Source: a virus
Length of the DNA stretch: 21,354 nucleotides
Direction: 5' to 3' (one strand)
IMG/VR virus record: IMGVR_UViG_3300040801_001631
Location: 1-21,354 of that record
Positions 1,766 to 21,189 of the stretch are shown here, piece after piece; within the stretch, counting starts at the first letter, position 1, and each line of letters begins with the position of its first letter. The translations under genes were made by a program, and so were the position numbers. The notes beneath the pieces are model-generated. The model did no database searches, was not told where the DNA came from, and was given only the letters and a program-made list of their open reading frames with translations.

Positions 1766-3319
1766 TTAGGGGGCTTCTCGGGCGGCCTGCTCACGCATCG
1801 CGGCACCGCCTTGACGGAGGAGTTCGGGGGTGGCCTGCTGCATCATTGCCTGCTGCTGCTGGGCCTGGCGAATCTGTGCGACTTCCTCGGCCGACCGGAT
1901 GACATCCGTGACGACGCCGAGGTTGGACTTGACGGTCTCGATGTATTCCACGTCCTTGAGGTACATGGCCACGGCCTCGGGTCCGAACAGTTCGGCGATC
2001 CGCGAGACCAGGGCGTCGAGACGGTCCTGCTCGTGGCCGCGGCCGAGGGCTTCGATGCCGGTGACGATCCGCAGGTCCAGGAAGTCCAGGGGCAGGGGTG
2101 GGAGGTTGCCGGCTTTGTCCTGCACACGCAGGAACCGCCGGATCAGGGGACGCTGGAAGTCCTGGGACAGGACCGAGTAGGCCCCGCCGAGGGAGTCTTC
2201 CAGGTTGCGGGCCAGGAGCCGGATTTCTTCGGCGGTGACCCGCTCGGCGTCCCGCGGGGTGGTGAGGAGGAAGGCGTGTTCGAGCCGGCGTTCGGCCAGG
2301 TCGGCGGTGCGGGCGGCGAACTGGAAGTCGCCGATCTTGCCGAGTTCGGGGGAGGTGATGTCCTCGGCCCGGCCGTAGCCGACGTGCCCGGTGTCCTTGG
2401 TCAGGTCGTCGGGCCGGACGGAGGAGCCGGGCCGGATCAGGCGGATGACCTTAGCGGCCTCGGCGGCGGCCAGGGTGATCGACCGCGTGACGCTGTTGGC
2501 GGTACGCAGGTCGCCGATCAGTTCCTCGACGTAGCCCCGGCCGTAGTCCTCCCCGGCCACGGAGATGAACCGCAGGGGGATCAGCGGGGGCTCCTCGGCC
2601 TTGTGTGTGGAGCGGGTGGATTCGACCACCATGTCCAGGACTTCCTGGTGGCGGTGCCAGGTGTCGCCCTTGAGGACGGCCCAGGTGTAGACACTCACCT
2701 CGTCGTCGGGTTTCTTGGGAGAGGCGTCGTCCTTGGTCTTCTCGATAACGGCTTCCCGGATCGCGTCGGGCAGGGCCGCGACGGCCACCACCTCGTGGGT
2801 GATGACTTCGATGGGCTTGCCGCCGCCGCTACGGGCCACGACGTAGTTGTCGAGGCGGTACATGCGGAAGCTGCTGTCGGCCTCGATGTTCAGGCAGGTG
2901 TTCCCGCCGATGATGAGTTGACGCAGGCCGTCGAAGGTGACCGGCCGGAACACTGTGGTCTCCAGCAGGCGGACGGTACGGGTTTCGATGTTGGCCAGCT
3001 TCCGGCCGATCTCGGCCCGGACTTTATCGGTGATCTGTTCGTTGTCCTCGACCTTGCTTTCGTCGAGGGACAGAGAGAAGAACGGGCTGTTCGGCGGGAA
3101 CAGAGCCAGCTGGAGCTTCGAGGCCAGGTTGTTCACCCCCCGTTGGCCGATGTTGGTCCAGGGGGAAGGGATGCGGGCCGGGGCGTTCCCCGGCTGGTTC
3201 GTGGTCTCGGGGAAGACGGAGGGGATGGTGAGGCGGGATGCCTCCCGTGCCGCGTTGACGTAGGGCTCGCGTCGGGTTTTGAGCGTGTCGTACCGGCTGC
3301 GGGCGGTGGGCTTATCCAA
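1766..3319 (-). CDS. Portal (head-tail connector) protein, T7 gp8-like
   Basis: This 517-aa protein matches T7-type portals in length (gp8 is 536 aa) and in its start, with residues 5-30 (TARSRYDTLKTRREPYVNAAREAS) followed by IPSVFPETTNQPGN. Near residue 55 is the segment NIGQRGVNNLASKLQLALFPPN, a hallmark of Caudovirales podovirus connectors. The C-terminus is Gln/Ala-rich (QAQQQQAMMQQA). It would form the dodecameric ring for DNA packaging and tail attachment. The start is TTG (3319-3317), overlapping the last codons of the upstream small gene, with only a weak GGGGTG site. Translational coupling is likely. Confidence 0.95.
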   Translation of the reverse strand: MDKPTARSRYDTLKTRREPYVNAAREASRLTIPSVFPETTNQPGNAPARIPSPWTNIGQRGVNNLASKLQLALFPPNSPFFSLSLDESKVEDNEQITDKVRAEIGRKLANIETRTVRLLETTVFRPVTFDGLRQLIIGGNTCLNIEADSSFRMYRLDNYVVARSGGGKPIEVITHEVVAVAALPDAIREAVIEKTKDDASPKKPDDEVSVYTWAVLKGDTWHRHQEVLDMVVESTRSTHKAEEPPLIPLRFISVAGEDYGRGYVEELIGDLRTANSVTRSITLAAAEAAKVIRLIRPGSSVRPDDLTKDTGHVGYGRAEDITSPELGKIGDFQFAARTADLAERRLEHAFLLTTPRDAERVTAEEIRLLARNLEDSLGGAYSVLSQDFQRPLIRRFLRVQDKAGNLPPLPLDFLDLRIVTGIEALGRGHEQDRLDALVSRIAELFGPEAVAMYLKDVEYIETVKSNLGVVTDVIRSAEEVAQIRQAQQQQAMMQQATPELLRQGGAAMREQAAREAP

Positions 3320-6002: not shown

Positions 6003-8069
6003 TTAGTGGGTCTCCTTCCAGCTGTCCCCCACGTCGTAGGAGCCGGCCAGAGGACAGCGGAAGTTGAAGTGTTCGCCCGCGAGGCGGATGCTTTCGGAGA
6101 ACCGCCGGCCGGCCTCCTCGGCCGTTTCGGGGCGGGCCTCCATCTGAACCTCGTCGTGGATGTTGCCGACCAGTCGAATGACGGCGGCGGTGTCGTCGAG
6201 GTCGCGGGCGATGCGGAGACCGTCAAGCTCGCACTGTTCAACGAACAGGCAGAGAGCCTTCTTCATCACCAAGGCACCGGCCGACTGAAGCAGCGTGTTG
6301 AGGGCCGCATGGTCCGACCGGATCGGGAGGGTACGTCCGTCCAGGCCCCGGAGAGCCCCGGCCGACTTGACCCGCTGCTGGACCCCTTCGCTCAACAGAC
6401 GCAACGCGGGCAGGGCCTTGAGGAACCGGTCCTTGAGCTTGTCGCCCAGAACGGTCAGGGCGATGTCTGCGGGGGTCGGGCTGCCGTACTTCCGGAGACG
6501 CTTCTCGACGGTCTTCCAGGCCGAAGCGTTTCCGGCCTGGGTTTCTCGGATGCGTTCGGGGGTCCCGGCTCCGTAGACGATGGAGCCGATCTTCTTGCTC
6601 CCGGCTCCGTAGAGCCAGCCGTAGATGAAAGTCTTGGCGATGTCCCGGCCGGTCTGCGGCTTCCCGCTTTCCTCATAGACCGACTTTGGATCGAGGCCGA
6701 TGGCCCGGCAGTTGGTCGAGTGGATGTCGGTCCCGTCGTCCTTCGACCCTTCGAGGATCGTGGCGGCGTACTGCCCGTCGTCGTGTCGGGCCAGAAAGTG
6801 GCCCAGGCACCGAAGCTCCAGGCCGTCCGCGTCGGAGCCGACCAGCTTCCATCCGGAAGCGGGGACGAACAGTTCCCGGCACTCGTCGCCGAACTCCACC
6901 TTGGAGGACGGAATCTGGGCCAGGTTCGGGGAGGCGTGGGTGCAGCGGCCGGTGACGGCCCCGTTGGTGATGACGCGGCCGTGGATTCGGCCGTTCTTGA
7001 CCACGCGGAGCCAGCCGTTGCTCCCCTCGGCGATCTGCCCCACCCGCTTGAGCATCATGAAGTACCCGGCCAGGTCTTCCGCCTCGGGGTAGGGGAGGGA
7101 AGACAGGACCGACTCGTCGATCTGCGGCTGCCCGCTGTCGGTGAGCTTGTCCGGCTTCCATCCGTACTTCTCGATCAACCGCTCGGCGACCTGCTTCCGG
7201 CTGCCGGGGTTGAACGGAATCTCCCGCTGGCGGGGCGGACCCTTCTCCCAGCGGCAGTCCTTGGGAGCCCACCCCCGCTCCTTCCGCTCCCGGTCGGCGT
7301 CGGCCTTGGTCACGGCCTGGATCGTGCTGTCTCCGCGGTGTAGCTTCCAGTAGGCCGGGGACTTGAGGGTCTCGACCCGTGGCGGGAAGATGCTTTGTAG
7401 CTGGGCCTCGTATTCCAGCAGCCGCTGCCTCATCTCCGCGTAAAGGGCCGTGGCCTTCCGCTCATCGAACCCGAAGCCGCACCGCTCCTGCCAGAAGATG
7501 TACCGGCGGAAGTCGTGTTCGAGCTTCGAGGATTCCTCGGAGAACCCCTGCCGGACCAGATGTTGGTGGAGCCGCTGGGTGAGGCGGGTGTCCTGCTCGC
7601 AATATTTCTGCATCGCGGGCGACCACTCGGCCCAGTCCGTGTCCTCCCCGAAGTCCCCCTTGTGGGTTCCCAGGCGGTAGCCCCAGGCCTTGAGACCGTA
7701 GGTGCCGATGAGCTTCTTCGGCAGTTTCTCAACGGCAGCCAGGCGGTGGTCGCCGGGCTCGATGTCAGAGAAGACCAGGCGGGAAAGGACCAAGGTGTCC
7801 TGCACGTTGTCGGTCAGTTCGAGGTCGGGGTAGAGCTTCCGCAGGGCCGGCAGGTCGAAGCAGATGATGTTGTGGCCGATTAGCTGATCGGCCGAAGCCA
7901 GTTCAGCGAGGCCCGTAGCCAGGTCCATAAATCCATGCGGCTTTCCTTTCGAGTTTCCGGTGCAGGACATGGCTTTCCCGGAGTCGGGGTTGACGATGCA
8001 GAGGGAGTGGAGAGTGTGGCACTCGTCGAGTAGGCCGTTGGTTTCGATGTCGAAGACAAGTCGCTTCAC
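6003..8069 (-). CDS. Family A DNA polymerase with 3'-5' exonuclease (T7 gp5-like)
   Basis: This 688-aa replicative polymerase is close to T7 gp5 in length (704 aa). The exonuclease domain has Exo I FDIETNG (6-12), Exo II LIGHNIICFDLPAL (63-76) and Exo III YCEQDTRLTQR (156-166), so proofreading residues are present. The polymerase domain has GRCTHASPNLAQIPS (374-388), motif A SDADGLELRCLGHF (412-425), motif B RDIAKTFIYGWLYGAG (475-490) with Tyr483 at the position of E. coli Phe762, as in T7, and motif C HDEVQ (638-642). The basic stretch at about 235-285 aligns in place with the T7 thioredoxin-binding loop but looks shorter; thioredoxin use is unproven. The start is GTG 8069 with AAAGGAAG upstream. 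Confidence 0.97.
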   Translation of the reverse strand: MKRLVFDIETNGLLDECHTLHSLCIVNPDSGKAMSCTGNSKGKPHGFMDLATGLAELASADQLIGHNIICFDLPALRKLYPDLELTDNVQDTLVLSRLVFSDIEPGDHRLAAVEKLPKKLIGTYGLKAWGYRLGTHKGDFGEDTDWAEWSPAMQKYCEQDTRLTQRLHQHLVRQGFSEESSKLEHDFRRYIFWQERCGFGFDERKATALYAEMRQRLLEYEAQLQSIFPPRVETLKSPAYWKLHRGDSTIQAVTKADADRERKERGWAPKDCRWEKGPPRQREIPFNPGSRKQVAERLIEKYGWKPDKLTDSGQPQIDESVLSSLPYPEAEDLAGYFMMLKRVGQIAEGSNGWLRVVKNGRIHGRVITNGAVTGRCTHASPNLAQIPSSKVEFGDECRELFVPASGWKLVGSDADGLELRCLGHFLARHDDGQYAATILEGSKDDGTDIHSTNCRAIGLDPKSVYEESGKPQTGRDIAKTFIYGWLYGAGSKKIGSIVYGAGTPERIRETQAGNASAWKTVEKRLRKYGSPTPADIALTVLGDKLKDRFLKALPALRLLSEGVQQRVKSAGALRGLDGRTLPIRSDHAALNTLLQSAGALVMKKALCLFVEQCELDGLRIARDLDDTAAVIRLVGNIHDEVQMEARPETAEEAGRRFSESIRLAGEHFNFRCPLAGSYDVGDSWKETH

Positions 8070-8280: not shown

Positions 8281-9912
8281 CTAGTAGTCGTTGTGATTGT
8301 CGAAGCCATAGCTGTCCGCGGACTCAACCGGGGCATCGCACGGCAGAAGTCGGCCGGTGTCGGGGTGGTACTCGACGTAGCCGGCCGGGCCGTTGTCGCC
8401 CCACTCTCGGTTCTTGAGTTGGCGGATCAGGGACTGGTTGGACTGTTCGCCCTGCTGGTCCCGCTCCAACGCGATGATCGAGTCGGGGACGTGTTTGAGG
8501 GCACCGCTTCCGCGGAGTTCGGTCAGGGTCACCCTGCCCCCTTCTTCGTGGGGCTTGCCGCCGGGCTGCTTGAGGTGGACGATGGCGATGACTCCAACCC
8601 CGGTGTTCTCGATGAGGGACCGCAGGTGGGTCATGAGCACGTCGATGTCCTTGCGTTCGCCCTGGCCGCTGCCTTCCTGGCCGGAGACCACCATGCTGAT
8701 GTGGTCCAGCAGGATGAAGTCGCACTGGAGGCCCACGGCGAAGTACCGCAGCTTGGCGATCAGGTGTTCTGATTCCATGCTGCCGAAGTGGTTGTAGAAG
8801 GCCATACGGCCGCCGCGGACCAGCTTGTCCAGGCCGGCCTCGACCTGCTCCTCGGTCAAGACGCTCCGGGGGTCTTCCCGGAAGCGGCCCAGCGGGATGT
8901 CGTGTTCGATGGCCAGGTAGCCCTGGATGGTCTTGCGGTAGCTCTCCTCCAGGAAGATGTTCCCGATGCGGAGGCCGTGGGCGGTAACCAGGTGGTGCCC
9001 GATCTCGCGGACCAGGGTCGTCTTGCCGATGCCGGTGCCGGCGGTGAACAGGGTGAGTTCGCCCTTCCGGATGCCCCGATTCATCTCGTTGATGCCGGGG
9101 TAGGGCACGGTGTAACCGGTGCTGGGGGCCTGGTACAGGTCGCTGACCTGGATGTCGTCCCCAGAGATGATGCCGTCCGGTCGGTAGAGCTTGGCCGACC
9201 ACTGTGCCTCGATCAGTTCCTTGATCTTGCCCTCGACCAGCATGGCGTTGGCGTCCTTCTCGGAGAGGGACGCGATGTAGGCCCGGCCGGGGGTAAGGAG
9301 TTCGGCACACTCGACGGCGGCCGCCTGGCCGGGCTCGTCCTGGTCGAACATGAAGACCACGCGGTCGAACTGTTCGAGGTACTCCAGGTTGCTGCGGATC
9401 GACTTGGCCGCCGCCTGGGCACCGTTGGGCACGGAAACGACGGGGTACTTGTGGTTCAGGGCCTGGGACATGGAGAGGGCGTCGATCTCGCCCTCGGTGA
9501 CGATTACCATCTTGCCCCCGTCACGCCAGAGCCACTGCCCGTACAGGGTCATCTTCTTCGGATCGCCCAGGATCAGGAACTCCTTGTTCGGGCGGCGGAC
9601 CTTCTGGGCGACCACGGTCCCCTTGTTGTCTAGGTAGTTGGCGATCTGGACGTTGGCGGATCGGTGCATACCGATCTCGTAAGACCACTTCTTGCATGTC
9701 TCCTGGGTGAGTTTTCGGGTGCGGAGTTGCTTGGCTTCTCCGCCCTGGATCAGGTCGGGCATACGCCTCCGGGGGGTTGTAGGTGCGGCGGTGCCGTCGC
9801 CCTGGGAGTGGGTCTGGCAGGAAAAGCAGAACGTGTGCCCGTCGTCGTAGAGGGCGTTGGCGTCGGAGGACCCACAGGCCGGGCAAGGTCCCTTGGAGAC
9901 AACCTCGCTCAT
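8281..9912 (-). CDS. Primase-helicase (T7 gp4-like)
   Basis: This 543-aa protein joins primase and ring helicase (T7 gp4 is 566 aa). An N-terminal zinc motif has C10, C13, C29 and C32. The TOPRIM core shows VTEGEIDAL (E140) and FMFDQDEPG (D190, D192). The helicase shows Walker A TAGTGIGKTT (290-299), the catalytic glutamate in LEES (321-324), Walker B FILLD (399-403), the sensor histidine in VHLKQP (H446) and the arginine finger region QLKNREWGDNG (R502). The C-terminus is acidic and ends in Tyr (DNHNDY), comparable to the acidic, Phe-ended T7 tail that touches the polymerase. The ATG overlaps the RusA stop as ATGA; the ribosome site is weak, so coupling is likely. Confidence 0.97.
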   Translation of the reverse strand: MSEVVSKGPCPACGSSDANALYDDGHTFCFSCQTHSQGDGTAAPTTPRRRMPDLIQGGEAKQLRTRKLTQETCKKWSYEIGMHRSANVQIANYLDNKGTVVAQKVRRPNKEFLILGDPKKMTLYGQWLWRDGGKMVIVTEGEIDALSMSQALNHKYPVVSVPNGAQAAAKSIRSNLEYLEQFDRVVFMFDQDEPGQAAAVECAELLTPGRAYIASLSEKDANAMLVEGKIKELIEAQWSAKLYRPDGIISGDDIQVSDLYQAPSTGYTVPYPGINEMNRGIRKGELTLFTAGTGIGKTTLVREIGHHLVTAHGLRIGNIFLEESYRKTIQGYLAIEHDIPLGRFREDPRSVLTEEQVEAGLDKLVRGGRMAFYNHFGSMESEHLIAKLRYFAVGLQCDFILLDHISMVVSGQEGSGQGERKDIDVLMTHLRSLIENTGVGVIAIVHLKQPGGKPHEEGGRVTLTELRGSGALKHVPDSIIALERDQQGEQSNQSLIRQLKNREWGDNGPAGYVEYHPDTGRLLPCDAPVESADSYGFDNHNDY

Positions 9913-10289
9913 GGCTCGGGCTCATCGAGGGCCACGATGGTCACATCCACCCAGCCGCCGGACTTGCCCTCGGGGGGCCGCTTCTCGGCGGCGAGCTTCG
10001 TGATCTGGGTGTCGTCGGCGTAGATGCCGGCGTGTCCGAGGGCGTCCAGCAGGGCCTTGAGGATGTTGTCGATGTCGCGGCGGCGGTGGTCAGGGACGAC
10101 GGCCACGATGTCCACGAAGACGGGGCCGGTGAGCGTATCGCCCACCAGCCCGGCCTTGCGGAGGTCGTCAACCATCCCGACCACGGCCTCACGAAACTCG
10201 CGGCCTTCCTTGCGAAGTACAACCCGATCGCGTAGCCGCATCCAGTAGTTGTTCACGCTCGGCGGGTACGGGAGGTGCAGCTGAATCAA
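9909..10289 (-). CDS. RusA-type Holliday junction resolvase
   Basis: This 126-aa protein matches RusA in size (E. coli RusA is 120 aa) and motifs: LPYPPSVNNYW (6-16), RRRDIDNILKALLDAL (69-84) with D72 and D74, and IYADDTQITKL (89-99) with D92/D93 and K98. These acids form the RusA metal site. It would cleave branched DNA during replication and before packaging, the job done in T7 by endonuclease I (gp3), which I do not see here. The start is TTG 10289, overlapping the SSB stop as TTGA. A later ATG (residue 17) would remove the PPSVNNYW motif, so the TTG is preferred. Confidence 0.92.
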   Translation of the reverse strand: MIQLHLPYPPSVNNYWMRLRDRVVLRKEGREFREAVVGMVDDLRKAGLVGDTLTGPVFVDIVAVVPDHRRRDIDNILKALLDALGHAGIYADDTQITKLAAEKRPPEGKSGGWVDVTIVALDEPEP

Positions 10290-10963
10290 TAGTCACCGTC
10301 CCCGGCGTCTTCGTCGGTGCTGTCGGCGACGAAGGCTTCCTCGTCGTCCGGCTGGTTCGGGTCCACGGTGAAGCCTTCGCCGTCTTCGTCGGCGTCGAAC
10401 CCGAAGTCGTCGAAGTTGTCCCCGCCGGCATACTCCTCCAGCTTCACGAGCTTCACTGCCTCCAGGCGGATCGAGACGCCGAACTGCTTGTTGCCTTCCG
10501 AGACGTAGGGACGTTCGGAGAAGCTGACGACAACGAGAGAGCCGTTGCCGATGTTCAGGTTCTGCTTGATGACGTTGCCTTTGGAGTCGAAGACCGGAAT
10601 CTTGACTTCGACGGTCTTCCCGTTGCGGGGGTTCTCGAACCGGGCGTCCCGCTTGAAGTTGATGTGGACCTCATCGGAGGGGTCGCCGTCCTCGTTGTAC
10701 TGCTCGATGAAAGGAGAACGGAACTTGCACTGCTTGAGGAGGCCCTTTTTCTGGGGCTTGGCCTCGGCCATCCTTTCTTCGAGAAGCTCTTCGGCGGCGT
10801 AGGTCCACCGCTCGGTCATCTTCTCGACCCATTCGTGGTCCGCGGGGACCACGAGCTTGAGGCGGTATTCCTCGCCGTCCTTGTTGTAGTTCTCGGCGGG
10901 ATCCTGGACGTTGGGGTAGAGGCAGGGAAAGATCGGGGTGGTCTGTCGTGGGGGCTTGGGCAT
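10286..10963 (-). CDS. Single-stranded DNA-binding protein (T7 gp2.5-like)
   Basis: This 225-aa protein resembles T7 gp2.5 (232 aa). The OB-fold region begins TPIFPCLYPNVQDPAENYN and includes EYRLKLVVP and VHINFKRDA. The last 45 residues are extremely acidic and end DGDY, a terminal aromatic after acids, like the T7 tail ending in Phe, which contacts the polymerase and helicase. The protein would coat single strands at the fork and assist recombination. CAGGAC precedes the ATG at 10963. The position next to the resolvase and primase-helicase matches T7 (gene 2.5, 3, 4). Confidence 0.88.
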   Translation of the reverse strand: MPKPPRQTTPIFPCLYPNVQDPAENYNKDGEEYRLKLVVPADHEWVEKMTERWTYAAEELLEERMAEAKPQKKGLLKQCKFRSPFIEQYNEDGDPSDEVHINFKRDARFENPRNGKTVEVKIPVFDSKGNVIKQNLNIGNGSLVVVSFSERPYVSEGNKQFGVSIRLEAVKLVKLEEYAGGDNFDDFGFDADEDGEGFTVDPNQPDDEEAFVADSTDEDAGDGDY

Positions 10964-11509: not shown

Positions 11510-14086
11510 TCATGAGAAGAAGTATTCCGAATCGAGGACAAGGCTAAGGTCCATGTCCCCGCGGGGAGGTACAGGGGGGAGGTCCTCGACGCCCTCCTCG
11601 ACCAGGCGGTTTCGGAGGGATTCGAGGGGGCAGTGATTCTCGTACAGGGAGACGAACTGCTCCCGAATGATCTGGGTGAAGCGGGGCATGTCCGCGGCGT
11701 GGGTCCCGTAGCTGTCGTGGACGACGAGGAACGAATCGATGCCCTCGGCGTGGGCCTGGTTGACGCTGTAGACCAGGTGGGCGGCGTCGTAGCTGTGGAC
11801 GAAGTTGGGCGGGAGACTGTTCCGCTGCTTGCGGGAGTCCACGGCGTCCGCGGCTTGAGCAACGCTAATCACGATGCTGGCCGACTCGTCTTTGCACTCG
11901 ACCTTCCGGGTCTGGGCCTTGCAGTATTGCTGGCAGACCGGGAACCCCACCGGCGAGGTCCAGCGGATCGGGACCCCGGCCCTGGCGGCCTTGGACGCAC
12001 ATTCCCGCAGGAAAGCCATCGCATCCATCGCGGCCTTCACCGTCTCGACGGCGGCGTCCCAAAGCAGCGTGACCAGAAGCTGAACGGCCTCGGAAAGTTC
12101 TTCGCCGAAGTAGTCCGGCATCCCGCCGGCGACCATCTCGCGGTACTTCTCGTGGACGTACTCGTAGAAGGCCCGCGAGGTGCCGCCGTAGGGTAGAACC
12201 ATGACCGGCCGCTTGACCAGGGAACGGTTCACGCCGATGCGGAGCCACTGCTGGGCATACTCCTTCCGTTTCCTCATGGCCTCGTGGGCATCTCCCTCGG
12301 CGGTCAGGACGATACCAACCTTGTCCGCCTTGTTCCCGCCGTCCGTTGCGATCTTCGTCCGCTTCTCGATCAGGCGTCGTTCCTTGGCCTTCCGCTCCCG
12401 CTCGGTCGGGGTGTAGTCTTCCAGCTTCTGGGACAGACGCTCGGCGACCCTGGCGTAGATGTCGGCCGGGCGGTCGCCGGGGACCAGGTTGACCTCGGCC
12501 CCGCCCTCGTTGTCGCGGAGCATGGCGGAGAAGTGCTGGAGCCCGTTGCAGGTCCCATCGACGTTGATCGGGAGGCGGGAAAGGAACCCGTAGCCCTGCT
12601 CCAGGAAGCCGGTCAGTTCGTCGGCGGCGGCCAGGAACATCCAGGGGTCGTCTGCGTCACGCCACCACTTGGTACTCCGCGGATCGCGGGCGGCCTCGAC
12701 GATGAGGTCGGCGTGGGTGTCGGCCCACTCGACCCGCTCGTTCATGGGGGTCTTGTCCAGGCCGTAGCAGTTGGCGGCGTGAATCTTGAGCCACCGGGCC
12801 TGCTCGGCCGTCTCGATGGGCTTGGCCTCGTGGAAGCGGACCATCGCCCGCATGAAGCCCGGACCCTGGGGTTGTAGGGCGTGAGGGACGGCGTAGATGC
12901 GGCCCCGGAAGTCCACCCGGTAGGGGTAGTAGAAGTACCCGTGGCCGATGAAACGGCGGGCACAGTTCAGGGAAGCCATTGCGGAGACACGCTTGGATAG
13001 GCGGGCCTCACGCTCGCGGTGAACCTTGTAGGCCGCCGCTTTCCAGTCCAAGAACTCCTGCTTGTTCTCCCTGCCGGGGAACGGGGGCATGGGGATGTTC
13101 GGAGTCGGGGGGAGGTCGCCGATGTCGATCTCGTGATCCACGGCCCACTGGATCGTCCGGTAGACCGTCTCGTTGACTTCCCAGGAGGTCTCCTGGAGCC
13201 GGTTCACGGCCTCGAACACAGCGGTCATGTCGCCAGACTTGAGGTCATCGAAGTGTCCGGGATGGAGGCGGTTGAGGGTGAACTTGAGGGGCTTCCCCTC
13301 CTCGGTGTAGTAACCCCCGCCGGAGAGACGGGACCAAGGGCGGGGCTTAACGATCATCGGCTCGCGGCAGGCGATCAGGTACTCCAGGAAGTCGTCTCGG
13401 TCTTCGAGATGCTCGACGACGTGGGCCGAAAGCAGAACCCGCTTCTCGGTCTTCCGGGCGTGCTTCCGGACATCGCGGAGTTCGAGCAAGCCGATGTCGG
13501 CCATGCGGTGGAGGACCCAAACCCCGACACGAACTCGGTCATCCAGGGGCCAGGGCGACCACTCAAGGTTGGCCATCCGGAGAAGCTGGGCTCGACGGGC
13601 CGGCCGGCCTTGCCCGGTGGTCATGTTTGTCACATGCCGCATGTACTCGTAGAGCTTGGGGCGGTCGGAGGACATCTTGGTGTACTTCATCTCCCGGTCC
13701 AGCCGCTTCCCGATTTCCTTGGCGACGTAGACGACGATGTTGTTCGTCTTCGGGCCGCAGATTGCGTCGATGACGGCCTTGCAGGCCACGAGGGAGACCA
13801 CCTCGGGGTCGAGGCGACCAACCAGAAGGGCGGACGTGGAGAGGTGTCCAGGAACGCCTCGGCGGTCTCGGTCGCCGACCTCCTGGATACGCTCCGACAG
13901 GGGGAGAACGACTTGCTTCAAGAACGAGCTATACCGGGGGGCCACGGAGCCGACTCCGGCTGCTTCGAGTTCTCGGGTGCGTTTCCGCAGACGCTGGATG
14001 AGTCCGTGTCGCTCTTTCCGCTCCATTTCGACCTGGGCCTTGAAGCGGGTGGCGTTGATTCCGGGAGGCACTTCGAGTTCTGTCAT
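11510..14086 (-). CDS. Single-subunit DNA-directed RNA polymerase (T7 gp1-like)
   Basis: This 858-aa enzyme (T7: 883 aa) would transcribe the middle and late phage genes. Motif A is INVDGTCNGLQHFSAMLRD with catalytic Asp510. Motif B is VNRSLVKRPVMVLPYGG with Lys625 and Tyr633, the residue that selects ribonucleotides in T7 (Tyr639). Motif C is VVHDSYGTHAADM with His790-Asp791. GYFYYPYRVDFRGRIYAV (383-400) is also typical. The C-terminus is EYFFS, related to but different from the FAFA end of T7. The ATG at 14086 has TTGGAG 5 nt upstream. A host-type promoter candidate carrying a palindrome lies 34-62 nt upstream. The promoter consensus used by this polymerase could not be deduced. Confidence 0.97.
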   Translation of the reverse strand: MTELEVPPGINATRFKAQVEMERKERHGLIQRLRKRTRELEAAGVGSVAPRYSSFLKQVVLPLSERIQEVGDRDRRGVPGHLSTSALLVGRLDPEVVSLVACKAVIDAICGPKTNNIVVYVAKEIGKRLDREMKYTKMSSDRPKLYEYMRHVTNMTTGQGRPARRAQLLRMANLEWSPWPLDDRVRVGVWVLHRMADIGLLELRDVRKHARKTEKRVLLSAHVVEHLEDRDDFLEYLIACREPMIVKPRPWSRLSGGGYYTEEGKPLKFTLNRLHPGHFDDLKSGDMTAVFEAVNRLQETSWEVNETVYRTIQWAVDHEIDIGDLPPTPNIPMPPFPGRENKQEFLDWKAAAYKVHREREARLSKRVSAMASLNCARRFIGHGYFYYPYRVDFRGRIYAVPHALQPQGPGFMRAMVRFHEAKPIETAEQARWLKIHAANCYGLDKTPMNERVEWADTHADLIVEAARDPRSTKWWRDADDPWMFLAAADELTGFLEQGYGFLSRLPINVDGTCNGLQHFSAMLRDNEGGAEVNLVPGDRPADIYARVAERLSQKLEDYTPTERERKAKERRLIEKRTKIATDGGNKADKVGIVLTAEGDAHEAMRKRKEYAQQWLRIGVNRSLVKRPVMVLPYGGTSRAFYEYVHEKYREMVAGGMPDYFGEELSEAVQLLVTLLWDAAVETVKAAMDAMAFLRECASKAARAGVPIRWTSPVGFPVCQQYCKAQTRKVECKDESASIVISVAQAADAVDSRKQRNSLPPNFVHSYDAAHLVYSVNQAHAEGIDSFLVVHDSYGTHAADMPRFTQIIREQFVSLYENHCPLESLRNRLVEEGVEDLPPVPPRGDMDLSLVLDSEYFFS

Positions 14087-14119
14087 GGGTCTCCAATCAG
14101 GCAGAGGTGAGGTGCGACC

Positions 14120-14148
14120 AGTGTAGGTTCAATGCGTTAACGCATCAA
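14120..14148 (-). promoter_or_regulatory. Candidate sigma70-type promoter of the RNA polymerase gene, with operator b
   Basis: On the minus strand TTGATG (14148-14143) and TACACT (14125-14120) are separated by 17 nt, four matches of six to each consensus hexamer. The perfect 14-bp palindrome ATGCGTTAACGCAT (14132-14145) fills most of the spacer and touches the -35. Transcription would start near 14113, 27 nt before the polymerase ATG. A protein bound to the palindrome should block host RNA polymerase. The promoter is inferred from spacing and hexamers only. Confidence 0.5.
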
Positions 14149-14355
14149 TCCATCGACCATGAGAATCGACCGTGTAGTTATCACGGTGGTAGGTACAGGA
14201 ATAATCCGGGATGAACCCGTGATATTACGTAGTAGGTTTTAGGTTGTTGTTAATAGCTGTAGTGAAGAAGAACTAAACCACGATATCACTTCGATAGAAC
14301 ACAATAGAACAAGATGTTAATGAGTTGTTACTAAGTAACTACAGGGTTATTACAG
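14149..14355. other. AT-rich non-coding region, candidate replication origin or leader
   Basis: This stretch is clearly AT-richer than the rest of the window and has no supportable gene. It holds an inverted pair TATCACGG (14179-14186) and CCGTGATA (14217-14224), a 10-bp-spaced direct repeat of ATAGAACA (14294-14301 and 14304-14311), and the palindrome GTTACTAAGTAAC (14327-14339). In T7 the primary origin is an AT-rich, promoter-linked region next to the RNA polymerase gene, so an origin role is plausible but unproven. Confidence 0.4.
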
Positions 14356-14410
14356 CCCCTCCTCCCTCCCTTCATCCCCCCTTTCCCCCCTTCTTCCCTC
14401 CCTCCTCCCC
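14356..14410 (-). repeat. Pyrimidine tract (purine-rich on the transcribed minus strand)
   Basis: Across 55 nt the plus strand is C/T with a single A. The minus strand therefore carries repeated G-runs (GGGG, GGG, GGG, GGGGGG, GGGGGG, GGG and others), enough to form a G-quadruplex in DNA or RNA. It borders the AT-rich region upstream of the RNA polymerase gene. It could aid strand separation at an origin or act as a pausing site. Confidence 0.6.
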
Positions 14411-14633
14411 ACCGATCAGCAAAGCCGATGGTCGAGATTCATAGGCGGTCGAGGTGTTGTTGCTTGTGTTCATGGGAGGTCGATCAGGTTCAGGCTTGGG
14501 GAGGTCGAACGGCTTGGCCCGGTCAACACGACGGGCACTCCTTCTCCGATACGGTAGGGATCCGTTTTTGGGCCTATCATCCGCATTACACCCGTCCCTG
14601 GTCACACCCGTGACCGGTGACTTGGCACAATCT
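14411..14633. other. Non-coding stretch between polymerase leader and terminator
   Basis: I find no gene with a ribosome site here. A 77-codon minus-strand frame reaches from 14605 into the pyrimidine tract, but it lacks a ribosome site and ends in a Gly/Lys run made by that tract. The right part contains the inverted repeat GGTCAC-ACCC-GTGACC (14600-14615), similar to the TTGGTCAC boxes on the other side of the attP core. Confidence 0.5.
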
Positions 14634-14647
14634 ATGCGTTTACGATA
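14634..14647. promoter_or_regulatory. Operator-like box, site c
   Basis: ATGCGTTTACGATA resembles the palindrome ATGCGTTAACGCAT, with one half conserved and the other degenerate. It lies 13 nt beyond the T-run of the terminator. A weak plus-strand promoter-like pair (TTGGCA at 14622-14627 and a poor -10) overlaps it, but no plus-strand gene follows. Confidence 0.4.
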
Positions 14648-14660
14648 CGGAGTACCTATA

Positions 14661-14700
14661 AGAAAAGCCGCAAGCCCTTGATTAACAAGAGCTTACGGCT
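14661..14700 (-). terminator. Strong intrinsic terminator ending the integrase operon
   Basis: On the minus strand a 15-bp stem pairs AGCCGTAAGCTCTTG (14700-14686) with CAAGGGCTTGCGGCT (14680-14666), all positions paired with two G-U wobbles. The loop is TTAAT, and the stem is followed at once by TTTTCTT. The plus strand has no T-run after the stem, so the direction is clear. It should stop transcripts from the early and integrase genes before the RNA polymerase leader, giving the polymerase gene its own transcription unit. Confidence 0.9.
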
Positions 14701-14734
14701 TACGTAAGTGCATTGAACCGGCCCAAACACGGGA

Positions 14735-14776
14735 TTCTTAATCCGACCGTCCCTGGTTCGAGTCCAGGAGGGGGCA
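14735..14776 (+). other. Candidate attP core: 3' part of a tRNA-Lys(CUU) gene
   Basis: The sequence has exact tRNA 3'-half geometry: anticodon loop TTCTTAA (14735-14741, anticodon CTT), the 3' anticodon strand TCCGA, a 5-nt variable loop, T stem CCTGG/CCAGG (14752-14756, 14764-14768) with loop TTCGAGT, acceptor strand AGGGGGC (14769-14775) and discriminator A14776. There is no D arm and no GCCCCCT 5' acceptor strand upstream, so it is not a working tRNA. Phages that integrate into tRNA genes carry just such a 3' copy, which restores the gene after insertion. The integrase gene lies 1.2 kb away. No such core was compared with a host genome. Confidence 0.75.
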
Positions 14777-14853
14777 TTGAAGAATATGCTTGTTTTACAA
14801 GTAGATTCTTACCCGGCCGACGCGGCCCAGGGGACCCCCCAGCCGGTCGGCTT

Positions 14854-14942
14854 GTGACCAAACGGTTGAATTGGTCACACGGTAATCCGTTTGCACTTGG
14901 TCACGTGGACACAGCGTCTTTCGTCTCCGCGGTTTTGGTCAC
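14854..14942. repeat. TTGGTCAC boxes next to attP, candidate integrase arm sites
   Basis: TTGGTCAC occurs at 14871-14878, 14897-14904 and 14935-14942, and inverted as GTGACCAA at 14854-14861. A related TGGTCAC lies on the other side of the tRNA fragment at 14599-14605, with its inverted partner at 14610-14615. Short repeats on both sides of a core are typical of the arm-type sites bound by the N-terminal domain of tyrosine integrases. Binding is inferred. There is no gene between 14777 and 14977. Confidence 0.55.
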
Positions 14943-14977
14943 ATTTGCGGAGTGAAACGGAGATTAAACCAGACCCG

Positions 14978-15043
14978 CTAGTTGTTGGTCTTCGCCTTCT
15001 CCGCATACTCCTTGCTCATCCACTCGGCGATGTCCGTGAGCAT
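14978..15043 (-). CDS. Very small ORF (21 aa), doubtful
   Basis: The frame begins ATG 15043-15041 with GAAAGGACAC upstream, the same type of ribosome site used by real genes here, and encodes MLTDIAEWMSKEYAEKAKTNN. It lies 17 nt after the preceding gene, and its usual GC-rich codon pattern ends at the stop, just before the repeat boxes. It could be the last gene of the integrase operon or a chance frame. Confidence 0.4.
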   Translation of the reverse strand: MLTDIAEWMSKEYAEKAKTNN

Positions 15044-15060
15044 GTGTCCTTTCGGTGGGG

Positions 15061-15393
15061 TCAGGGGTTGACGGCGACCATCGCCATCGGGAGGGAACAG
15101 GGAAGCAGGGACATCGGGAACAGCCGGGAGTCTCCGGCGTTCCGCCACTTGCGGGTCTCGGCGGGGCCGAACGACAGGACCTCGATCAGCCGCTCGTCGC
15201 GGGGTTGGCCGGACCCGGCCGGGGCGACCATGTAGCGGCCCGGAAGGGTCCCGTAGAAGGCCTCCTCATGGTGGACCGACTCCTCCGGGTCCTGCGGCTC
15301 GGCGTAGTCATGGAGCCCCCTGCGGAGCGTCTGGAGCGTCTCTTTCGGGGCGTGTTGGATGAAGTCAATCAGGTCTTGTTCGATGGCGGTCAT
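15061..15393 (-). CDS. Protein of unknown function in the integrase operon
   Basis: This 110-aa protein starts at ATG 15393, overlapping the stop of the repeat-protein gene as ATGA, with AGGAGA 4-5 nt upstream. The N-terminus is helical and acidic (TAIEQDLIDFIQHAPKETLQTLRRGLHDYAE). The middle contains GTLPGRYMVAPAGSGQPRDERLIEVLSFGP, and the end is hydrophobic (LFPMSLLPCSLPMAMVAV). I recognise no family. Its place between integrase and attP suggests an accessory carried with the lysogeny block. Confidence 0.7.
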   Translation of the reverse strand: MTAIEQDLIDFIQHAPKETLQTLRRGLHDYAEPQDPEESVHHEEAFYGTLPGRYMVAPAGSGQPRDERLIEVLSFGPAETRKWRNAGDSRLFPMSLLPCSLPMAMVAVNP

Positions 15394-15932
15394 GGGGTCT
15401 CCTGGGTTGGGGTTTCGTCCTTAATCAACGCGATCAGGGTTTCGACTTGTTGCTTCGACTCCGCCGACAACGCCGAAAACGCCGCCGACCTCGCCGCCGA
15501 CTCCGCCGCCGACCTCGCCGCCGACCTCGCCGCTGACTCCGCCGACCTCGCCGCTGACTCCGCCGACAACGCCGCCGAAAACGCCGCCGACCTCGCCGCC
15601 GTTGCAAGTTCTTCGACACCCGCCCGACCTTCGGCAAACCGCCTCGCTACCTGCACCGCTTTTAACGATGCGGGGTCGGGATTACTCACCCCGGCTATCG
15701 CCCTCTCCGCACAGTCGGCGGCGAACAGGCGGAGAATCCGGTCGCTTATCAACCCCCCACGTAAAACAGCCCAAAGACGATCCTCCGCCGGTACGGTTTC
15801 CCAAGGGCCTTCCGTGTTTTCTAGAACCTCAAGCACCGAGCGGGGCTCGGGAAACAAAGCGTTGAGACGCTCGTAGCTATAACAGGCGTACTGGTCACGG
15901 AGGCCTGCGGCGGTTAGGGTATTTTCGGTCAT
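15390..15932 (-). CDS. Ala/Ser-repeat protein, unknown function
   Basis: This 180-aa protein has a non-repetitive first 110 residues (including LRLFAADCAERAIAGV and SLKAVQVARRFAEGRAG) followed by about 49 residues built from AARS, AAES, AAFS and SAES units. It resembles a widespread group of phage and bacterial proteins in which the segment 'CAERxL...AxxxARxxAxGxA' precedes a long Ala-rich helical repeat; no function is established to my knowledge. The repeat would form one long helix with Ser on a 3-4 residue spacing. The start (ATG 15932) lies 16 nt after the integrase stop with a weak AAGAAGAA site. Confidence 0.75.
   Translation of the reverse strand: MTENTLTAAGLRDQYACYSYERLNALFPEPRSVLEVLENTEGPWETVPAEDRLWAVLRGGLISDRILRLFAADCAERAIAGVSNPDPASLKAVQVARRFAEGRAGVEELATAARSAAFSAALSAESAARSAESAARSAARSAAESAARSAAFSALSAESKQQVETLIALIKDETPTQETP
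15456..15602 (-). repeat. In-frame degenerate tandem repeat (Ala/Ser units)
   Basis: The plus strand shows repeated blocks such as GCCGACCTCGCC and GCCGACTCCGCC over about 147 nt. The units are multiples of three, so length changes by slippage would keep the frame. Codon-level copies are nearly identical, suggesting recent expansion. Confidence 0.8.
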
Positions 15933-15948
15933 ATCAAGTTCTTCTTTC

Positions 15949-16989
15949 TTATTTGGCAGTTACGGACTGCAACACGTCGATGCTGTCCCGAAGGCTTTCC
16001 TCGTTCAGGTGGGCGTACCGGAGCGTGGTCTTGACGCTGCGGTGCCCGGCCAGTTCCTTGATGCGGTTGAGGTCTACGCCCGCCTGGGAGAGGCGGGAGC
16101 AGAAGGTGTGCCGCAGGACGTGAGGCGTGAACGCCTTGTCCTCGTTCATGCCCAGCGTGTCCCTCATCCGGTTCCACTTGCGGTTCACGGCGGTCTCGGC
16201 GGCTTCGATGATGAACGGGCCGCCCATGCTTCCGGGTGGTCCGGTCTTCAGCCCGGCCAACGCTCGGGAGGCACGGTCGGTCAGGGGGATGGTCCGGGGG
16301 TAGCCCGACTTGGTTTCGTCAAGCCGGATCGACCCCCGTTTCAGGTCGATGTCCGACCACTCCAGGGACCTCGCCTCACCCATCCGCATCCCGGTGTCCA
16401 CCAGGACGATGATTAGGCTGGCGAACATGGTCTCCTGGTGCTCGACGCACCACTCCAGGGCCGCCCGCTCCTCGTCGAGGTCCAGGTAGCGGACCCGGTT
16501 GAGGTCTTCGGGAAGCTGGGGGACCCGGAAGCGGGAAGCGATCCAGCCCAGGTCCACAGCGTGGGTGAGTACCCGCGACATTGCGGCACAGTGGCGATTG
16601 ATCGTGGCGTGGGTCTTGCCCGCCTTCTTCATCACCTTGTGGAGGTCGAAGAAGTCACGCGGGGCGAGCGTGGCGACGTGTCGATCAGGCCCCAGCATCT
16701 CCGCGGCTTGACGCCCCCGTACCAGGGAGCCGTCTCCGTCCTTGTTGTGGGTCCAGACATCGACGTAGGTGCGATTCACCCCGGCCAACAGGGACCGATC
16801 CTCCGTCCGGGTTCCGATGGAAGTGCCCCGATCCGGGAGGTCCAGGGGCTTTCCCTGGCGGGTCCGACGCTTGGCGTCGTCTTCCCACTCCAGGGCCTCG
16901 GAACGGCTGCGGAAGCTCGGGCGATAGCGGGTGCCGGTTCGGTCCCGCACGTCTGCGACATAGCGTTGGCCCCGTTTGCGGATGGCCAT
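15949..16989 (-). CDS. int: Tyrosine recombinase (phage integrase)
   Basis: This 346-aa integrase has all catalytic residues: Arg in DTGMRMGEARSLEW, Lys in ETKSGYPRTIPL, HVLRHTFCSRL (His and Arg), LAGHRSVKTTLRYAHL (His and the nucleophile Tyr). The N-terminus (MAIRKRGQRYVADVRDRTGTRYR) looks like an arm-binding domain, followed by a core-binding SAM-like region near residues 75-160. The start is ATG 16989 with AAAGGA 8 nt upstream. It should insert the phage at a tRNA-Lys gene through the attP-like site at 14735-14776. An integrase upstream of the RNA polymerase gene is known in some T7-like podoviruses of cyanobacteria and SAR11 bacteria, which also use tRNA sites. Confidence 0.96.
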   Translation of the reverse strand: MAIRKRGQRYVADVRDRTGTRYRPSFRSRSEALEWEDDAKRRTRQGKPLDLPDRGTSIGTRTEDRSLLAGVNRTYVDVWTHNKDGDGSLVRGRQAAEMLGPDRHVATLAPRDFFDLHKVMKKAGKTHATINRHCAAMSRVLTHAVDLGWIASRFRVPQLPEDLNRVRYLDLDEERAALEWCVEHQETMFASLIIVLVDTGMRMGEARSLEWSDIDLKRGSIRLDETKSGYPRTIPLTDRASRALAGLKTGPPGSMGGPFIIEAAETAVNRKWNRMRDTLGMNEDKAFTPHVLRHTFCSRLSQAGVDLNRIKELAGHRSVKTTLRYAHLNEESLRDSIDVLQSVTAK

Positions 16990-17090: not shown

Positions 17091-17405
17091 TTAGAAGTCG
17101 AACGCCTTGACGGCCTCGATGCCCTTGCTGGTCAGGTAGCAGACTTGCTTTCGGTTGTCCCCGCTGGGAGACGGCCGGGTAGATACCAGGCCCCGCTTCC
17201 GTAAGCTGCCGATCCTGCGGGCAATAGACGCCTGCGAAAGATTCGGGACGATGTCCGATAGGTGGGTCTGTTCCATCTCCCCGTACCGCGAAGCGGCCAG
17301 GGTCAGGAACACACGAAGCTCGGTGATCGGCATTCTGGCCTCCACCTCGTCGCCCCCGCTGAACTTGGCCAGGGCTTCAATCAGTTGTCGGTAGTCGGCG
17401 TCCAT
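17091..17405 (-). CDS. MarR-like winged-helix DNA-binding protein
   Basis: This 104-aa protein contains MPITELRVFLTLAASRYGEMEQTHLSDIVPNLSQASIARRIGSLRKRGLVSTRPSPSGDNRKQVCYLTSKGIEAV. The helix-turn-helix (THLSDIVPNLSQASIARRIGSL) and the wing (RPSPSGDNRKQVCYLT) are typical of MarR-family regulators. I start it at ATG 17405; upstream codons in the same frame have no site. It lies about 100 nt before the integrase, probably in the same operon. It is the only clear regulator in the window, so it is the first candidate for the repressor or integration control. A TATACT box starts 8 nt upstream of its ATG. Confidence 0.85.
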   Translation of the reverse strand: MDADYRQLIEALAKFSGGDEVEARMPITELRVFLTLAASRYGEMEQTHLSDIVPNLSQASIARRIGSLRKRGLVSTRPSPSGDNRKQVCYLTSKGIEAVKAFDF

Positions 17406-17586: not shown

Positions 17587-17642
17587 TGTTTTCTCCGTGG
17601 GGTCCGTCCCTCCCCCGTATGAACAGGCTTCAGTAGGGTTAT

Positions 17643-17672
17643 GTTATATAAGCGATTTCCTTATGTGGTCAA
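17643..17672 (-). promoter_or_regulatory. Sigma70-like promoter for the regulator/integrase operon
   Basis: On the minus strand TTGACC (17672-17667) and TATAAC (17648-17643) are 18 nt apart, five of six matches to each consensus. The surroundings are AT-rich (TTATATAACATAACC). Transcription would start near 17636 and run through the 52-aa ORF, the MarR-like gene, the integrase and on to the terminator at 14661-14700. No operator-like box overlaps it. Confidence 0.65.
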
Positions 17673-18125: not shown

Positions 18126-19070
18126 TTACCCGGCGGCCGGGGCAGCGGGTTCGTAGTATTCAAGAACCAGGGGACCCCCGCAGACCGGACAGATAGGGAC
18201 CCCGGTAGACCGGTCCGTGTCGGTCTCATCCTCATCGAGAGGCAGGGCACAATCGTCGCACCAGTAGTACGCTTCGGGCTCGTCGGGCGGGCTCCAGCCG
18301 GTGGCGTCGTCATCATAGGAATCATACCAGTGTCCGGCGTTGCGGCGGGCATCCCGGTAAACGTACCGGATGCCTCCGCGTGTCCGCGTTTCCCGCAACC
18401 AGGCGGCCGCGTTGCGGACCGTCATGGCCCAGACAAGCGGGTCTATCGACTCCTGCGGGGTATGTTCCGCGTCGAACCCGATAGACACGTTCACGCCGAC
18501 GACGCCCAGGGCAGGGGCCAGAACCGAGACATCACTGAACGATCCCACGGCCTCGGCGTAGCCGTTGAACGGCCCCGATGTTAGATCGTGGTCCAGGTCG
18601 GCCGGGTTGGCGTCGTAGTAAACCAGATCGTTAACGCCCCGGCGGTCGAATTGCATGAACATCCCGAATACTTGATCCTCTAGGATGTCTCGGTGATATC
18701 GGGCGACGTGGCGGCTCCCGACACATCCGTCTTCTTCGGCCGGGACAATCAGCAGGCCGGCCCCGGAGTCCCGCAGCCGCCACAAGGCGGCACAGCCGGC
18801 CCGGTCGTCGGCCCCGATCCCCCGATCAGGCACGGCAGACCGGCCCCGGCCGTCGCCGCACCAGGCCAGGCGGCCCGGACCCGGCCACACCGTGTCCGTG
18901 TGTGCGACCAGGCAGACCGGATGCTCTACGCCGGGATCGGGCGGGACCAGGACCGCATCGGGCAGCCCAGGGACCGGGAGACGGCGGGCGTGGGGCAGCG
19001 ACGCGAACGCATCGACGATGGCGTCTTCCCCCGCTTCGATGAATTGCTTCAGTAGGTGCATATCTTGCAT
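18126..19070 (-). CDS. Clan MH zinc metallopeptidase-like protein (M28/M20-like) with C-terminal zinc ribbon
   Basis: This 314-aa protein shows the full metal-site order of M20/M28 co-catalytic zinc peptidases: VAHTDTV (H57, D59), IGADDRAG (D88), PAEEDGCVGSRH (E112 base, E113 ligand), MQFDRRG (D142) and AEHTPQESID (H203). EExGxxGSR and HTPxxxID look more like M28. The 60-residue distance from D142 to H203 leaves no room for the M20 lid domain, so it is a single-domain type. Residues 271-297 add a CxxC...CxxC zinc ribbon (C271, C274, C294, C297). The start is ATG 19070, weak site; ATG 19061 is an alternative. No signal peptide is visible, so it acts in the cytoplasm, on unknown peptides. Confidence 0.75.
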   Translation of the reverse strand: MQDMHLLKQFIEAGEDAIVDAFASLPHARRLPVPGLPDAVLVPPDPGVEHPVCLVAHTDTVWPGPGRLAWCGDGRGRSAVPDRGIGADDRAGCAALWRLRDSGAGLLIVPAEEDGCVGSRHVARYHRDILEDQVFGMFMQFDRRGVNDLVYYDANPADLDHDLTSGPFNGYAEAVGSFSDVSVLAPALGVVGVNVSIGFDAEHTPQESIDPLVWAMTVRNAAAWLRETRTRGGIRYVYRDARRNAGHWYDSYDDDATGWSPPDEPEAYYWCDDCALPLDEDETDTDRSTGVPICPVCGGPLVLEYYEPAAPAAG

Positions 19071-19082
19071 TGTTTTCTTTCG

Positions 19083-19096
19083 TAAGCGTTTAGGTT
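19083..19096. promoter_or_regulatory. Operator-like box, site e
   Basis: TAAGCGTTTAGGTT lies in the 31-nt gap between the 461-aa gene and the peptidase-like gene. It is the left part of the leader unit that is complete at 20488-20586, here without the hairpin part. On the minus strand it follows the stop by a few nt, as in sites f and g. Confidence 0.45.
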
Positions 19097-19101
19097 GGGG
19101 T

Positions 19102-20487
19102 TCAGCCCATGATGAAGTAGGTGCCCTCGGTGCTTTGACAGAGGTCCGGGTGGTCATCCGCAATAAAGGTGTCGGAGTCGTTAACCCACACCGCCTCATC
19201 GTGCAGGATGTATTCTTCAGAATGGTTCGACCAGCAGAAGTCGTGTTCAATGCAGCATCGGCAGACCATTCCCGAACCTTCGACGTATTCGTAGTCGTCC
19301 CCTTCCTCGATGGTGTCCCCGCAATGGGCACAGGTGCCGATTGATGCATTGCCGGACACGGAATAGTTGCTGGCCACCAAATCAACGGTGTCGTCTCGGC
19401 CGTCTCCCGCCACCCGGCAGGAACCGGAGTTGTAATAGATGTAGTCAACCGAATAATCCAGGAAGCGGGGCCGAGTCCGGGGCTCCAATGCAGTCTCAAG
19501 CTCCCCCGGATCAATCCCCCGGTCTTTCAGCACAATCCAGGCAGCCGCCGCGAACAGACACGGGGCGGCAAGGCCCAGCCCCGGCGAGTAAGTGTTGCAG
19601 ATCGTTATTGACCGCTCCCCGGCGACACCCCAGCAGCGGCCGATATATTTCCCGTTCGCGTCTTCAATCAACCCGGCAAAGCTCTGATTTTCATAGACCA
19701 GGATCGCCGGGGCCAGGCGATGCTCACCGCCCCGCCGGAAGCATGAGCCGGAGTCGGAGTCGGCGTAGTGCCCCAGACGTTCGACATACTCCGCGTCTCG
19801 CGTGAAGGTGATCGTGGCGTCTTCGAGTTTCTTCCGGGCCGACCGAAGATCGTTGAGTTTCAAGGACGCGGCTCGGCTCATGTGTTCCTCGAAAGCGGTT
19901 CTCTGTGCGACATAAGGAATACCGGCAATGGTCAATTTATCCAAGGCCCGGATCAACCAGGCTTCAATGGTGGCTTTACCGACCCGCCCGGAACGGGCCC
20001 AGGACCCGCTAAGAAACTCATCCGACCGAAGCGTTTTAGCCAGGTGGGCTATGTCCTTCTCGGCTTGTTTCGCGTAAACGCCCTTGTTGTTAATCAGGCA
20101 CGTATCCAGCAGGCCCGCCAGGTCGGCGGCCGCCTCCCGACTTTCATCGTTCCAGACGTCGCGGGTTTCCTCATCCAGGGTCAGGTCCAGACACTCCGCA
20201 GCCGGGACCGTGACAGAATCGTACCCGGCGGCTTGGGCTTGCTCCCCCAGGAGGAAACGTCCGCCCGATGTCTTCCTCGCCTTCAGGGCGTTCGCCCATC
20301 CGGCGGGGTCGCTTAAATCGTCCACGTGGAGGCCCCCGCTTGTCCGCTCCGCCAGGTTATCGGCCACGGCCTCCAGCCGCTCCGGCCGATGCATGGTGCT
20401 GAATGCCAGCCGGCCCATCGTGCCCTGCGTTGCCGGTTCGCCCAGCCCCGCTTCCAGGGTCTTCACTTCCGCAGTCTCTACGCTCAT
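19102..20487 (-). CDS. Large early protein with C-terminal zinc ribbons, unknown function
   Basis: This 461-aa protein is probably expressed early. Residues 1-100 are of mixed helix type, 100-240 are helical and charged, and 240-300 hold DSGSCFRRGGEHRLAPAILVY followed by GLIEDANGKYIGRCWGV. Phage proteins with 'SC...hP....Y' and 'G.yigR' are familiar as conserved early proteins of unknown function. The C-terminus has CAHC (386-389) and a second Cys cluster (C409, C411, C412, C418, C450), likely zinc ribbons. I start it at ATG 20487 (TTGGAG 8 nt upstream), because the next gene upstream starts with the same MSVE codons and leader; a TTG two codons earlier is less likely. Confidence 0.75.
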   Translation of the reverse strand: MSVETAEVKTLEAGLGEPATQGTMGRLAFSTMHRPERLEAVADNLAERTSGGLHVDDLSDPAGWANALKARKTSGGRFLLGEQAQAAGYDSVTVPAAECLDLTLDEETRDVWNDESREAAADLAGLLDTCLINNKGVYAKQAEKDIAHLAKTLRSDEFLSGSWARSGRVGKATIEAWLIRALDKLTIAGIPYVAQRTAFEEHMSRAASLKLNDLRSARKKLEDATITFTRDAEYVERLGHYADSDSGSCFRRGGEHRLAPAILVYENQSFAGLIEDANGKYIGRCWGVAGERSITICNTYSPGLGLAAPCLFAAAAWIVLKDRGIDPGELETALEPRTRPRFLDYSVDYIYYNSGSCRVAGDGRDDTVDLVASNYSVSGNASIGTCAHCGDTIEEGDDYEYVEGSGMVCRCCIEHDFCWSNHSEEYILHDEAVWVNDSDTFIADDHPDLCQSTEGTYFIMG

Positions 20488-20586
20488 AACCAAAACTCCA
20501 ACTAGGGATCAATGAACCCAGCCCCATCGGCCAGGCAATGGCCGGCTCCGGCGTTGACCGGAATCGACCTAAGCGTTTAGGTTGGT
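20488..20586 (-). repeat. Leader repeat, copy 1, with operator-like box f
   Basis: This non-coding leader of the 461-aa gene is closely similar to copy 2 (20782-20875). From upstream to downstream it holds the box CCTAAACGCTTAGG (20581-20568), a CCGG/CCGG hairpin, the hairpin GGCCA-TTGCC-TGGCC (20543-20529), GGGTTCATTGATCC, and TTGGAG before the ATG. Confidence 0.85.
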
Positions 20587-21138: not shown

Positions 21139-21189
21139 CGTCAAGCTCCAACTAAGGATCAGTGAACCCGGCCCCATCGGCCAGGCAAT
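21139..21189 (-). repeat. Leader repeat, copy 3 (partial)
   Basis: Upstream of the acidic gene, this copy keeps the start-proximal part of the unit (GGCCGATGGGGCCGGGTTCA, GATCC, TTGGAG) but diverges inside the GGCCA hairpin, where a different stem takes over. Confidence 0.8.

Follow-up and report, generated by a model that had tools for sequence, protein, structure and literature searches.

Integrating T7-like phages of the Pasto, LUZ100 and pelagiphage type are characterized by a tRNA-derived attP site near the integrase gene. In T7-like cyanophages, the published attP sites correspond to tRNA-Leu in 11 of 11 cases, and the integration of S-TIP37 requires both the integrase and attP; cyanophages with these parts integrate at a low rate and form no stable lysogens (PMC8776855). 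Integration of Pasto and HTVC019P is cited as demonstrated in PMC10134795, and the record of TRX32-1 states induction from a lysogen. Hosts from which integrating T7-like phages are known include Rhizobium, Agrobacterium, Pseudomonas, Bordetella, Mesorhizobium, Roseobacter and Limnohabitans, and several of these phages have a GC content of 55-61%. The original prediction for the locus described here had placed such phages mainly in cyanobacteria and SAR11, and had regarded them as not GC-rich. This is wrong, since the cassette regions of several relatives have 55-60% GC and the LUZ100 genome has 61% (PMC10134795).

Here we analysed a stretch of viral DNA of 21,354 bases, the record IMGVR_UViG_3300040801_001631 (hereafter the window). 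Judged by the integrase, the closest annotated phages are Autographiviridae that integrate or at least carry an integrase, several of which are also among the closest by RNA polymerase. The closest relatives comprise Pasto, RHEph01, RHEph21, TRX32-1, LUZ100, Lo5R7ANS, BB8, roseophages, pelagiphages and a Limnohabitans phage, all near 30% identity. A tRNA was detected in the cassettes of nine relatives, three of which, all Rhizobium phages, are closely related among themselves, and it is tRNA-Leu in all nine; in eight of them it is antisense to the integrase gene, as is the tRNA-like core of the window. Neither a tRNA nor a perfect T arm was found in the cassettes of BB8 and three roseophages. 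A search of viral contigs with the integrase gave no match, and the RNA polymerase retrieved a sole IMG/VR relative, IMGVR_UViG_3300030329_001510 (L002), at 33% identity.

Gene content and organization of the window

The window is a fragment of a T7-like phage, the structural region of which is cut after the scaffold gene. All recognised genes are located on the minus strand. Along this strand, small early genes and an open frame with a zinc-peptidase-like domain (18126..19514; phrog_4191, 5e-15; Peptidase_M28, 9e-5) are followed by a MarR-like regulator, a tyrosine integrase, two small frames and an intergenic stretch that contains the tRNA-like core. Beyond the core are arranged the T7-type single-subunit RNA polymerase (858 aa, 11510..14086; PF00940, 4e-106; phrog_414, 1e-228), the T7-type single-stranded DNA-binding protein (10286..10963; PF21265, 8e-15), a RusA-type nuclease, the T7-type primase-helicase (8281..9912; PF21268, 1e-17; phrog_239, 1e-172), a family A DNA polymerase (6003..8069; PF00476, 3e-36), a 5'-3' exonuclease, a dNTP-hydrolase-like gene, the portal or head-tail connector (1766..3319; PF12236, 6e-67) and the scaffold. 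The window thus presents the order of the Autographiviridae on one strand, namely early, polymerase, DNA metabolism and structural genes, together with the phage-encoded single-subunit RNA polymerase, which is about 33% identical to those of the relatives. A complete T7-type replication set had been predicted; the T7-type genes listed above are indeed present, but the description is slightly generous, as the small nuclease is of the RusA type and family searches assigned no endonuclease I or ligase in this 21-kb fragment.

Three further features of the record were observed. A leader repeat of up to 70 nt occurs at 20506-20575, 20798-20867 and 21156-21190, just upstream of early frames on the minus strand; the first two copies are 94% identical, and the third is alike in its first part only. 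These repeats might be promoter or translation leaders common to the early frames. At its end, the record has more than 20 consecutive A (21332-21354), possibly an artefact of the assembly. Between the integrase gene and the attP candidate, a minus-strand frame (15390-15932) encodes Ala/Ser/Glu-rich repeats and matches phrog_18326 (function unknown), with a weak Imm5-like match in addition; its DNA is repetitive at 15445-15625, in steps of 9 or 12 bases.

A half-tRNA core between the integrase and RNA polymerase genes

The candidate attP core is a 42-nt stretch, TTCTTAATCCGACCGTCCCTGGTTCGAGTCCAGGAGGGGGCA, on the plus strand at 14735..14776, within the intergenic stretch between the integrase gene (16989-15949, minus strand) and the RNA polymerase gene (14086-11510, minus strand). 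It has the layout of the 3' half of a tRNA-Lys(CUU), running from the anticodon loop to the discriminator base. The loop TTCTTAA, which contains the anticodon CTT, is followed by the 3' strand of the anticodon stem (TCCGA), a 5-nt variable loop, a perfect 5-bp T stem with the loop TTCGAGT, the 3' strand of the acceptor stem (AGGGGGC) and the discriminator A. The GGA at 14732-14734 is still compatible with the anticodon stem, and the resemblance to a tRNA stops upstream of 14732. ARAGORN detected no complete tRNA in the window, and the core has no 5' half. A T-arm scan of both strands of the window returned the core as the only site. Moreover, a search for the combined geometry of anticodon loop and T arm found one site in the window and one site in total in 300 random sequences of equal length, generated by a first-order Markov model from the base-to-base transitions of the window. 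The geometry control and ARAGORN therefore confirm the prediction that this 42-nt stretch has the geometry of a tRNA-Lys(CUU) 3' half and lacks the 5' half.

When the 5' halves were taken from seven real tRNA-Lys(CUU) genes and fused to the core, an intact tRNA-Lys was predicted for all seven chimeras, the behaviour expected of an attP that restores a disrupted tRNA. In addition, an inverted repeat, GGATT-CTT-AATCC, is centred on the anticodon, an arrangement that would fit strand exchange within the anticodon loop.

The integrase and its candidate arm-type sites

The integrase gene (15949..16989, minus strand) encodes a full-length protein of 347 aa from its ATG, which matches PF00589 (Phage_integrase, 1e-28) and phrog_1 (1e-57). 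The catalytic residues Arg202, Lys227, the HxxRH motif with Arg293-His294, His316 and Tyr325 are all present and are conserved in the alignment with the relatives, so that the predicted complete tyrosine integrase is borne out.

At a distance of 78-166 bp to the right of the core, four exact copies of TTGGTCAC are clustered at 14854 (minus), 14871 (plus), 14897 (plus) and 14935 (plus), spanning 14854..14942. The window holds five exact copies, four of them inside 89 bp, and TTGGTCAC is the only 8-mer with four copies within 100 bp, one repetitive coding stretch excepted. A near copy, CTGGTCAC, is located at 14598, on the opposite side of the core from the cluster. These copies are possible arm-type sites of the integrase; alternatively, they might be sites for a regulator.

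Regulator, terminator and candidate operator

Directly upstream of the integrase gene and on the same strand lies the gene of a putative MarR-like winged-helix regulator (17091..17405, with the ATG at 17405 and a longer open frame to 17549). Its best PHROG is phrog_9665, at a weak E value of 2e-4, and the Pfam MarR models, with a weak match to MarR_2, stay below the cut-off. The regulators of LUZ100, Pasto, RHEph01, Lo5R7ANS, HTVC200P and L002 fall into phrog_9665 as well. The assignment as MarR-like thus comes from a weak match, yet position and family agree. Upstream of this gene, a sigma-70-like promoter candidate on the minus strand (17640..17668), with TTGACC and TATAAC about 18 nt apart, was read by eye; the automatic scan did not report it.

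Between the attP core and the RNA polymerase gene, the terminator scan revealed an intrinsic terminator on the minus strand (14665..14701), which consists of a 16-bp stem followed by TTTTCTTAT. It has a folding z-score of -6.7, and none of 200 shuffled sequences was as stable. A perfect palindrome, TGCGTTAACGCA, at 14133..14144 is a candidate operator of the regulator, with matches that exceed those in each of 100 shuffles. The MarR-like regulator, the strong terminator and the TTGGTCAC cluster next to the core, with its four copies in 90 bp, are features that the original prediction did not include.

Search for the host and for related prophages

Bacterial tRNA-Lys(CUU) genes that end in the core, and prophages bounded by it, had been proposed as the check on integration; neither was found. 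No copy of the exact 42-mer occurs in 84,980 species genomes or in the viral contigs, which also lack the exact 34-mer, and no site within three mismatches was present in 397 Phycisphaerae genomes. A relaxed tRNA pattern, in which the anticodon stem, the T loop and the acceptor were held fixed, retrieved 19 loci from the genomes, 5 in Planctomycetota and 14 in bifidobacteria-type Actinobacteria. The actinobacterial tRNAs were discarded as attB candidates, since position 32 of their anticodon loop is C and they differ from the core by 8-9 mismatches. Among the 19 loci, T32 of the anticodon loop is shared only by those of the Phycisphaerae type, which match the core at 35-37 of 42 positions. These nearest tRNA-Lys(CUU) genes belong to Phycisphaeraceae (Planctomycetota). 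In the best match (37/42), the five interruptions comprise a compensating T-stem pair (two differences) and three differences in the variable loop. This form is carried by 2 of the 51 genomes in the family of the best-matching genomes, and one further Planctomycetota genome has a tRNA-Lys match of 36/42. Searches of plasmid and phage DNA with the att region gave just weak, short matches and ordinary tRNA genes.

No prophage of the window's lineage was found in about 300 Phycisphaerae genomes. T7-type RNA polymerases are encoded in 5 of 298 of these genomes at 23-28% identity to that of the window; they are more distant than those of Pasto or LUZ100 and thus do not represent prophages of this lineage. 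A Phycisphaerae integrase with 32-35% identity (L050, 16736-17840) is located beside a tRNA-Leu(CAA) gene, and was rejected on account of the surrounding 38 kb, which have no other match to a protein of the window. Distant T7-type RNA polymerases are present on Phycisphaerae contigs of 110-129 kb (L035, G072:C23; L036, G037:C15), the second of which also has a tRNA-Leu; these are possible T7-like prophages in Planctomycetota. Overall, the tRNA matches make a Planctomycetota host a lead rather than a result, and we regard it as tentative, somewhat short of an even chance.

Proposed mechanism of integration

We propose that the window is very probably a non-integrated (attP) fragment of an integration-capable T7-like phage, whose integrase acts on a tRNA-Lys(CUU) gene of the host and recombines at its anticodon region. 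The non-integrated arrangement is evident from the phage genes on both sides of the intact core. Upon integration, the phage-borne 3' half (14735-14776) would replace the 3' half of the host gene, and the tRNA would consequently stay functional, while the TTGGTCAC sites next to the core, four or five in number, would serve as arm-type sites of the integrase. The MarR-like protein, presumably co-transcribed with the integrase, might restrain the lytic RNA polymerase gene, and the terminator at 14665-14701 would limit how many transcripts of the integrase operon run on into the polymerase gene. The early/integrase region and the polymerase gene flank attP on its two sides, and integration would therefore put them at opposite ends of the prophage: the early-regulator-integrase block would lie at the tRNA-side end, and the polymerase gene at the other end, beside host DNA. 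The integrated polymerase gene would be cut off from upstream early transcription and rely on any promoter in 14087-14734, and integration itself might form part of the off switch for the lytic polymerase.

Site-specific integration through this attP into a tRNA-Lys gene of the host, as originally predicted, is the best reading of the core, the integrase, the MarR-like regulator, the terminator, the gene order and the chimeric tRNAs, and as a sequence-based reading it is well supported; the matching host gene was the part that did not turn up. Lysogeny is likely, but the term temperate goes further than the evidence, as T7-like cyanophages that have these same components integrate but form no stable lysogens. 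Integration might accordingly be a transient event during lytic infection here too, a reading with which the attP form of the window and the lack of a prophage of this lineage in the Phycisphaerae genomes are consistent. However, the window has a MarR-like gene adjoining the integrase gene, as in the lysogenic lineage of Pasto and of TRX32-1 with its recorded induction, and we consider purely transient integration rather unlikely.

The tRNA fragment might also be a relic of a past host tRNA or of an old attachment site, with the integrase now using another one. The absence of the exact core from the species genomes would agree with this, and tRNA capture by imprecise excision has been suggested by the authors of the LUZ100 study (PMC10134795). 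By contrast, the perfect T stem, the canonical anticodon loop and an acceptor strand that pairs with real tRNA-Lys 5' halves indicate that the fragment is not decayed; moreover, its position and strand are the same as in Pasto and YIMV22061, and the candidate arm-site cluster adjoins it, which together make a relic very unlikely. A chance resemblance to a tRNA half has a negligible probability, as the Markov-sequence control yields about one such site in 300 random windows and the site falls exactly where the relatives carry a tRNA.

Comparison with known integrating phages

Compared to the window, Pasto (MT708545), which is reported to lysogenize Agrobacterium, possesses a similar set of a zinc peptidase, an HTH/MarR gene, a tyrosine integrase, small genes, an antisense tRNA and a T7-type RNA polymerase, with the zinc peptidase two genes upstream of the regulator-integrase pair. 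Despite this likeness, sequence identity is low (32% for the integrase and 33% for the polymerase), and Pasto has a complete tRNA-Leu, whereas the window has a tRNA-Lys 3' half. The order regulator-integrase-tRNA-polymerase is common to the window, Pasto and Limnohabitans phage YIMV22061 (PQ492660), in which the integrase gene is likewise followed by an antisense tRNA and the RNA polymerase gene, but the tRNA is a complete tRNA-Leu. Pseudomonas phage LUZ100 (OP329100, PMC10134795) is also GC-rich and has a MarR-integrase operon upstream of the polymerase gene, a tRNA antisense to the integrase gene, and a terminator between integrase and polymerase at the place equivalent to that of the window terminator; it differs in its complete tRNA-Leu, located between the MarR and integrase genes. 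In P-SSP7 and S-TIP37 (PMC8776855), attP is a stretch near the integrase gene that has the same sequence as part of a tRNA gene of the host, as proposed for the window, but the tRNA is tRNA-Leu, the hosts are cyanobacteria and integration occurs without stable lysogeny. L002 shares with the window the order of MarR-like gene, integrase, RNA polymerase, SSB, primase-helicase, DNA polymerase and exonuclease; it differs in its GC content of 42%, and no tRNA or perfect T arm was found there.

Integrating T7-like phages being already known, the new elements here are only the host lead and the tRNA target. That a Planctomycetota host (the first for an integrating T7-like phage), a switch from tRNA-Leu to tRNA-Lys(CUU) and silencing of the polymerase by promoter separation all hold together is unlikely. 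The idea of an off switch is general, and applies equally to relatives in which the tRNA attP is located between early host-type promoters and the polymerase gene, a position from which integration could act in this way. As for the target, the window is predicted to use tRNA-Lys, whereas tRNA-Leu is the target in the nine relatives with a detectable tRNA and in the published cyanophage sites. The window would thereby widen the range of tRNAs targeted by integrating T7-like phages and, should the Planctomycetota lead prove right, extend these phages to another bacterial phylum.
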